Assembly (NCBI GenBank): GCA_903838035.1
Contig: CAILWW010000099.1
Location: forward strand, 1 to 36,001
Direction: 5' to 3'
Source: an uncultured Actinomycetes bacterium
GTDB taxonomy: Bacteria > Actinomycetota > Actinomycetes > Nanopelagicales > Nanopelagicaceae
Length of the DNA stretch: 36,001 bases
Part shown: piece by piece, positions 4,949 to 36,001 of the stretch
Position numbering within the stretch: the stretch's first letter is position 1
Layout: each line of letters starts with the position of its first letter
Made by a program: the position numbers and the translations under genes
The notes under the pieces: model-generated
The model's database searches: none
What the model was told of the DNA's origin: nothing
Seen by the model: the letters and a program-made list of their open reading frames with translations, nothing else

Positions 4949-4954
4949 TATAGT
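4949..4954 (+). promoter_or_regulatory. Candidate -10 box for a leaderless MFS transporter mRNA
   Basis: TATAGT is followed by seven bases (GGGCGTA) and then ATG at 4962. No Shine-Dalgarno is present before this ATG. This favours ATG 4962 over the in-frame GTG at 4953, which overlaps the box. Confidence 0.5.
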
Positions 4955-4961
4955 GGGCGTA

Positions 4962-6188
4962 ATGAAGCGATATTGGGAGATTTTGAGGATGGCTACGGCC
5001 CGAAATCTCATGATCAGCGCCTTCCCGGCGCGATTGGCCTACGGCATGATCTCTTTGGGTATTTACTTCAAAGTCCAACAAGCCACTCACTCCATTGCCG
5101 CTGCAGGTCTGGCTGTTGGCTTAAATGGAGCGGCCGGAGCATTTACTGCCGGCCCTCGAGGGGCAATCATCGATCGACTTGGTATGAAATGGCCATTGCG
5201 ATTCTTAGTTCCCAGTTATGCAACGTTGATACTTATTTTCAATGCCGGCCACAGTCGCAATTACCTCATCACCCTGGCATTTATCCTTGGATTTACCGCT
5301 CCTCCAATTAATCTCTCCGTGCGTCCGCTTTGGAAAATTACGGTGCCCTCAGATTTACTCAGAAGCGCGCTCGCAATCGATACCGCGATCATGAATACAG
5401 TGGGAGTTTTTGGTCCAGTAATAGTCACCTTTCTTGCCCTCTCCAAAAATCCGCTTTGGGCGCTCTATCTCTGTGCCGCGCTGATGTATATCGGTGGCTT
5501 CGCACTTATGTCTCTACCCGTAACTCGAAGCTTTGTGCCAGAGAAGAAGGAGAAAGATTCTTCGGCGCTCTGGCGAGTTCCGGCAGTTCAAATCCTGGCG
5601 ATTGAAGGAGCTTTTATTGGCTTGGGAATGGGGGCATGGGATATCGGCGTTCCGGCTTTCGCAACGCTCAAGCACCAGCCGCATTTAGCCGGAACAATTT
5701 TGGCGATTATGGCGGGAGCAATTGTGCTTGGCGGATTCTTGGCCGGCCTTATCTCTCGTCAAACTTCTTCGCTGGCGGCGCTTCGAAAAATCTATCTCGG
5801 ATGGTTCGTTGTCAGTATTCCCTTAGCTGCCACGAACCCTGGGTTGACCATGTTTATCGTCACCGCCTGTATCGGTTTACTCGGTGGCGGTCTCCAAGTC
5901 TTCTATTGGGAGGTAATTGAGGCGGTTCGGCCGAAAGGATCGCAATCTGGAACTTTAGGTTGGCTCTGGACTATTGAAGGAACCATGTCAGCCATTGGCG
6001 CATCACTCGGTGGCTTCATATCGCAACACTTCTCCCCTCGCTATTGCTTTCTCACGATGACGGGCACCATCGCCATTGGTTTAATAATTATTACATTGGG
6101 TCGCAAGCGACTTCACGCAGCCGATCGGGCTCCTAGTGATGATGAAGATACTGAAGCCCTTGGAGATGTAATTTCCAATACTGATTAA
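4962..6188 (+). CDS. MFS-type transporter of unknown substrate
   Basis: A hydrophobic 408-residue protein with about twelve predicted membrane spans and a major facilitator pattern. The loop after span 2 reads GPRGAIIDRLG, resembling the MFS loop 2-3 signature, and a second half begins near residue 200 after a charged central loop (EKKEKDSS). The C-terminal tail is acidic and cytosolic. I cannot name the substrate; a drug or metabolite efflux role is the generic guess. The start is ATG 4962, chosen from the TATAGT box seven bases upstream; a GTG at 4953 is the alternative. It is one of only two plus-strand genes here, divergent from rpsA and convergent with polA, whose stop codon overlaps its own by two bases. 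An exact 119-base copy of its interior (5286-5404) recurs at the right end of the window. Confidence 0.85.
   Translation: MKRYWEILRMATARNLMISAFPARLAYGMISLGIYFKVQQATHSIAAAGLAVGLNGAAGAFTAGPRGAIIDRLGMKWPLRFLVPSYATLILIFNAGHSRNYLITLAFILGFTAPPINLSVRPLWKITVPSDLLRSALAIDTAIMNTVGVFGPVIVTFLALSKNPLWALYLCAALMYIGGFALMSLPVTRSFVPEKKEKDSSALWRVPAVQILAIEGAFIGLGMGAWDIGVPAFATLKHQPHLAGTILAIMAGAIVLGGFLAGLISRQTSSLAALRKIYLGWFVVSIPLAATNPGLTMFIVTACIGLLGGGLQVFYWEVIEAVRPKGSQSGTLGWLWTIEGTMSAIGASLGGFISQHFSPRYCFLTMTGTIAIGLIIITLGRKRLHAADRAPSDDEDTEALGDVISNTD
5286..5404 (+). repeat. 119-bp direct repeat, copy A (inside the MFS gene)
   Basis: Bases 5286-5404 are identical, in the same orientation, to 35883-36001. The match starts sharply (C at 5285 versus G at 35882) and runs to the last base of the window, so its true right end is unknown. 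This copy is in its natural context: it continues the MFS reading frame on both sides. Confidence 0.97.
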
Positions 6189-12795: not shown

Positions 12796-12833
12796 AAAAA
12801 GAGGGCTCCCTGCTAGCAGGGAGCCCTCTTTTT
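12796..12833 (-). terminator. Perfect 38-base palindrome between livK and livH: strong intra-operon terminator
   Basis: A run of five A, then GAGGGCTCCCTG, a central CTAG, its exact complement, and five T form a perfect 38-base inverted repeat. On the minus strand it lies just after the livK stop and is followed by a TTTTT tract, so it reads as a Rho-independent terminator; by symmetry it works in both directions. Its position between the binding-protein gene and the permease genes suggests partial termination that gives more LivK than membrane complex, or a 3' stabilising hairpin on the livK mRNA. Confidence 0.88.
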
Positions 12834-34493: not shown

Positions 34494-35450
34494 CTAGAGC
34501 TGAGGGTGCTCTGAAAGAATTTGCAGCGAGCGTGTCAGGTCAGCTGGATACTCTGTTTGAAATTCCACGCGCTCCCCGCTGCTTGGGTGAATAAAGGAGA
34601 GCTTTTTTGCATGCAGCCATGGGCGCCGAATCTCAAGTCGGTCAGAGACGGTGTGGTCTGCACCATAGGTGACATCCCCTACCAATGGGTGGCGAAGGGC
34701 CGAAAAGTGGACTCGGATTTGATGAGTTCTCCCGGTTTCAAGTTCAATTTCTAATAAAGAAACCGCTGGAAAAAATTCGAGCGCCGTGTAATGAGTGATA
34801 CTTGGTTTTCCATCGGCAACGACGGCAAATCGATAATCCTCCCGCGGATGTCGATCAATAGGTGCATCGATCGTTCCTTCTGATGGATCCATATGTCCTT
34901 GAACTAGTGCGTGATAAATTTTATGCACAGTGCGATCTCGAAATTGCTGCTTGAGATGGCTATAGGAATTTTCATTCTTGGCCACCACCATTAATCCAGT
35001 TGTGCCGACATCGAGGCGATGAACAATTCCTTGTCGCTCGGCAGCACCACTGGTGGAGACTTGGTAGCCCGCTGCGATGATTGCACCAATCACGGTGGCA
35101 CCGGTCCAGCCCGGACTTGGATGAGCGGCAATTCCAGCGGGTTTATCAATCACGATGACATCTGCATCATCATAAATAACTTTGAGTCCATCGATCGGCG
35201 TTGCTTGGAGCGAAGGAGGCGCCTTGGGTGCCGGCATCAGAATTTCTATATATTGATCTGTAGAAACTTTCTCAGATTTAGCTAGCTTCTTCCCGTGGGA
35301 GCTGACCTCCCCCGCGTCTATGAGCGAGACAACTACTGACCTGGAGAGGCCAAGTAACCGTGCCAGTGCGGCATCCAAGCGTTCACCATCTAGGCCATCT
35401 GGTACAAGTACAACCTTGCTCTCACGCGCAATACTCGGGTCGGTATTCAT
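34494..35450 (-). CDS. rluD: Ribosomal large subunit pseudouridine synthase, RluD family
   Basis: Converts specific uridines of 23S rRNA to pseudouridine. The 318-residue protein has an N-terminal S4 RNA-binding domain (about 18-85, RLDAALARLLGLSRSVV) and an RluA/RluD catalytic domain with VIDKPAGIAAHPSPG, the catalytic Asp in GIVHRLDVGTTGLM, and the late motif LETGRTHQIRVHFSALRHPLVGD-type region. Its ATG at 35450 overlaps the lspA stop in an ATGA junction. The lspA-rluD pair is conserved in many Gram-positive bacteria. The exact target uridines cannot be read from sequence. Confidence 0.94.
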   Translation of the reverse strand: MNTDPSIARESKVVLVPDGLDGERLDAALARLLGLSRSVVVSLIDAGEVSSHGKKLAKSEKVSTDQYIEILMPAPKAPPSLQATPIDGLKVIYDDADVIVIDKPAGIAAHPSPGWTGATVIGAIIAAGYQVSTSGAAERQGIVHRLDVGTTGLMVVAKNENSYSHLKQQFRDRTVHKIYHALVQGHMDPSEGTIDAPIDRHPREDYRFAVVADGKPSITHYTALEFFPAVSLLEIELETGRTHQIRVHFSALRHPLVGDVTYGADHTVSDRLEIRRPWLHAKKLSFIHPSSGERVEFQTEYPADLTRSLQILSEHPQL

Positions 35451-35882
35451 GCTCTCCTGTCGTGGGTGATCGGCTTTATGCCGCGCATATTGAGAATGAC
35501 GATCAAGCCCGCACCGATAACAATAGAGGTATCTGCCAGGTTAAATATCGGCCAATGCGGGAGTTCTATCCAGTCAATAACACGCCCCTGCAGTGGCGAG
35601 CTCGCTCTAAAAACTCGATCAATCTCATTTCCGAGAATTCCGCCGATAACAAAACCAAGGGCAACAGCCCAAGGGCTCGAGGTAATGCGCGTACTCCACC
35701 AGAGCAGAATGAGAATGACCAAGAAGCCAAAGAGAGTAAGAAATATGGTTTTGCCGGTTGCCAAATTAAAGGCCGCACCTGAGTTGGAGGCCAAATGGAA
35801 TTGAAGTAAAGCGCCAAGAATTCGAACAGGTTTATCTGAGAGATATTTCAGGGCAATGCTCTTGGTGATGTAATCGGTGGTG
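35447..35882 (-). CDS. lspA: Signal peptidase II (lipoprotein signal peptidase), 5' end replaced
   Basis: LspA cleaves the signal peptide of diacylated prolipoproteins after Lgt has acted. The native part, about 145 residues, starts at TDYITKSIALKYLSD, equivalent to the conserved D-x-x-T-K at the end of the first span. It includes LASNSGAAFNLATGK, then GNEIDRVF and FNLADTSI with the two catalytic Asp residues, and a short basic tail. The first membrane span and the real start codon are missing. From base 35883 rightwards the sequence is the antisense of the MFS gene, so the frame continues to an ATG at 35989 with 35 foreign residues. The stop overlaps rluD. The core gene is certain; the N-terminus shown here is not authentic. 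Confidence 0.93.
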
Positions 35883-36001
35883 CTTGGATTTACCGCTCCT
35901 CCAATTAATCTCTCCGTGCGTCCGCTTTGGAAAATTACGGTGCCCTCAGATTTACTCAGAAGCGCGCTCGCAATCGATACCGCGATCATGAATACAGTGG
36001 G
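35883..36001 (+). repeat. 119-bp direct repeat, copy B, fused to lspA at the window end
   Basis: Identical over all 119 bases to 5286-5404 in the MFS gene, same orientation. It begins abruptly two codons before the conserved LspA Asp and runs to the last base. As part of a plus-strand gene it would encode MFS residues from about 109 onward without a start. It is out of context here, and suggests a chimeric join or the edge of a duplication. Confidence 0.97.

Follow-up and report, generated by a model that had tools for sequence, protein, structure and literature searches.

A 119-base copy of an MFS transporter gene at the contig end beside lspA is most probably a remnant of the assembly graph

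The last 119 bases of the stretch of DNA analyzed here, read ahead of a truncated lspA, are with a probability of about 95% a residue of the de Bruijn graph at one end of a contig assembled from short metagenomic reads and not a product of biology. The window is the complete contig C99 (36,001 bp), one of the 110 contigs of a draft genome that totals 1.35 Mb and is 87% complete; the copy lies flush with the right end of C99. The comparison of sequences within the window revealed that positions 35883 to 36001 equal positions 5286 to 5404 at 119 of 119 bases and in the same orientation, with the break exactly at 35882/35883, in agreement with the mismatch-free copy described in the original prediction. 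The repeat is exactly 119 bases long, with a mismatch already at the base to the left of 35883 and a right limit that is set by the contig end only. Exact repeats of this length are far above the chance expectation. No third copy of the segment was found in a search of the whole genome, and the 32-mer spanning the junction had no exact match among viral contigs, a result that carries no weight for any of the explanations.

The two sites differ in what surrounds the shared bases. Positions 5286 to 5404 (forward strand) are the genuine copy, lying inside the gene of an MFS transporter (4953 to 6188, forward strand) whose frame is open across the site. This gene consists of 411 uninterrupted codons, matches the Pfam family MFS_1, and has full-length homologs of ~411 amino acids in relatives of the same genus. 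At the right edge, positions 35447 to 35882 (reverse strand) encode genuine signal peptidase II (lspA), which lacks its 5′ end as the assembly stops there. It matches Pfam Peptidase_A8 (PF01252), and the alignment with relatives is normal from the motif TTDYITK onward; none of the residues before this motif could be convincingly aligned with the relatives. The part of the frame ahead of the joint is encoded by 35883 to 36001 read antisense to the MFS gene, and the resulting fused frame of 180 to 184 amino acids, although open across the joint, is not a real protein. Thus, the original prediction was right that LspA is normal and in frame past the joint and that antisense MFS sequence alone precedes it. 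The scan of contigs with LspA returned no second genome of the same species, only relatives with 41 to 56% identity.

The length of the copy is explained by the way in which contigs of this genome end. We compared the outermost 300 to 400 bases of those contigs of the same genome that are at least 3 kb long (sequences below this size appear as N), which gave 141 readable ends, including both ends of C99. Exact flush overlaps were found in 13 end pairs, with lengths of 141 (five pairs), 119 (three), and 99 bases (one), and a single pair each of 136, 121, 112, and 67 bases; these last four match no k value. The k list of MEGAHIT includes 99, 119, and 141, and its contigs break with end overlaps of length k (PMC10914622). 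From these overlap lengths, we infer that the assembler was of the MEGAHIT type. The suggestion that 119 might be a k-mer size of the assembler, made on the condition that the window end is also the contig end, is borne out on both counts, since C99 stops at 36001 and the flush overlaps cluster at 141, 119, and 99. One of the three 119-base overlaps involves the left end of C99 itself: positions 1 to 119 (no strand assigned) are shared, exactly and flush, with the beginning of contig C104. This joint, at k = 119, is genuine, and uvrA continues through it in frame. Since 119-base end overlaps recur and the C104 join is correct, such overlaps are here marks of the assembly graph, and the number 119 reflects the word size of an assembler rather than anything biological. 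The copy at the right end is likewise flush with the contig end and has a length that is one of the recurring k values; positions 35883 to 36001 (no strand assigned) are accordingly classed as a false contig-end tail and not as part of lspA, given their identity to 5286 to 5404, the contig end at 36001, and the recurrence of 119 among the end overlaps. Elsewhere in the assembly, the ends of C11, C20, and C36 and the start of C26 carry short tandem repeats with copies ~9 to 47 bases apart, and such repeats are another cause of contig breaks.

The relatives show what should stand upstream of lspA. Their gene order is ileS, a traR/dksA-like gene, lspA, rluD, and dnaE. The traR/dksA-like gene, which encodes a zinc-finger protein with a long Lys/Ala-rich start, lies directly upstream of lspA in all five same-genus loci that were read. 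In four of the five, ileS is visible beyond traR; in the fifth (G009), the contig ends inside the repeats. In the genome under study, the right end of another contig, C96, carries ileS and the start of traR and stops inside the latter, after the Lys/Ala repeats, at ...KVRSP. The true continuation hence differs from the tail and is located elsewhere, with ileS and the traR start on C96 arranged as in the relatives. The possibility that the Lys/Ala-rich match of C96 to the whole TraR-like protein was low-complexity noise was considered and rejected, the C96 end being read as the true start of traR. In the end segment of C96 (78323 to 78622), the contig stops shortly past the Lys/Ala-rich tandem repeat that codes for this start, and contig C8 of G009 ends in the same repeat. 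That a contig of G009 also ends in the traR repeats implies that this spot is difficult for short-read assembly.

The C-terminal part of traR was not found in this bin, and the same query was positive in all eight same-genus relatives searched. Between the RSP codons of traR and the point corresponding to the lspA break, five relatives have 668 to 677 bp. Judged from gene order and these distances, the right end of C99 is predicted to face the right end of C96 across a gap of ~0.67 kb (~670 bp). Since both the rest of traR and the start of lspA are missing, the end of C99 falls in an assembly gap and bears a false 119-base tail.

This arrangement bears on the idea that a fragment of the MFS gene was really inserted into lspA in this lineage, which was among the explanations first put forward. 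The frame, open over 184 codons across the joint, is what such an insertion can claim in its favor, but the copy is 100% identical to its source and stops precisely where the contig does. Moreover, the insertion would cost an essential enzyme its start and some of its first membrane span, and the normal upstream ileS-traR is present on C96 and stops in the same gap. With synteny and the 119-base length both against it, we reject this explanation as almost certainly wrong.

The same data weigh against a structural variant present in some of the cells, in which the 30.6-kb segment from 5286 to 35882 would be duplicated head to tail or excised as a circle, with a joint at 35882/5286. The tandem duplication was likewise one of the explanations offered originally. 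The orientation of the copy is the one expected for such a joint, and the construction of the graph implies that some sequence data must have connected both points. Nevertheless, neither end point has a repeat, a transposase, or an integrase, the match extends by 0 bases to the left, the surrounding genes are housekeeping genes, and the 119-base length is already accounted for by k. A duplication would also keep the normal path from lspA to traR, which no contig of the bin has (the eight of eight relatives serving as a positive control), even if, in a genome that is 87% complete, the assembly gap alone may be the reason why this joint is missing. Taken together, these points make a duplication or circle very improbable.

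The preferred explanation, an artefact of the graph at the contig end, was also the one favored originally, and it agrees with the window being a whole contig, with the k-length end overlaps, and with the presence of ileS-traR on C96. The tail could have arisen as follows. Near the gap, a stretch of chimeric reads or a local extension would have linked the lspA path to the node of 5286 to 5404, presumably in the k = 119 round. The lspA path would have stopped on this 119-base node because the node has two entrances, the second one coming from the MFS gene. With k raised to 141, the assembler would then have found an unbroken path through the MFS gene, leaving the 119-base node hanging as a tail on the lspA contig. 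Some points speak against a pure artefact: the overlaps of 136, 121, 112, and 67 bases are not k values, and the graph needs some sequence spanning 35882/35883, so that a few real molecules with this joint may have existed.

The tail has consequences for the use of this assembly. Programs that predict genes will annotate a chimeric LspA here whose N terminus, over ~36 to 40 amino acids, is false. At the same time, the contig ends provide an order, in which C104 joins the left end of C99 and C96 would follow its right end after the ~0.67-kb gap. Elsewhere in the window, between the genes of a liv-type substrate-binding protein and a permease, we observed a 38-base palindrome without mismatches that contains runs of A and T (12796 to 12833). 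The folding of this region gave −33.4 kcal/mol with a z score of −8.2, and the palindrome resembles an intrinsic terminator acting in both directions or a hairpin that would attenuate the transcript.

The closest known counterparts of the C99 tail are the k-length end overlaps of contigs assembled with MEGAHIT, metaSPAdes, or IDBA-UD, on which COBRA relies (PMC10914622). The overlaps used by COBRA have the length of the maximum k and join contig ends, whereas the tail of C99 corresponds to 119, a k below the 141 also seen in this assembly, and has its second copy inside the same contig. In both, exact repeats as long as k abut a contig end, and the identical length recurs between further contig ends of the assembly.
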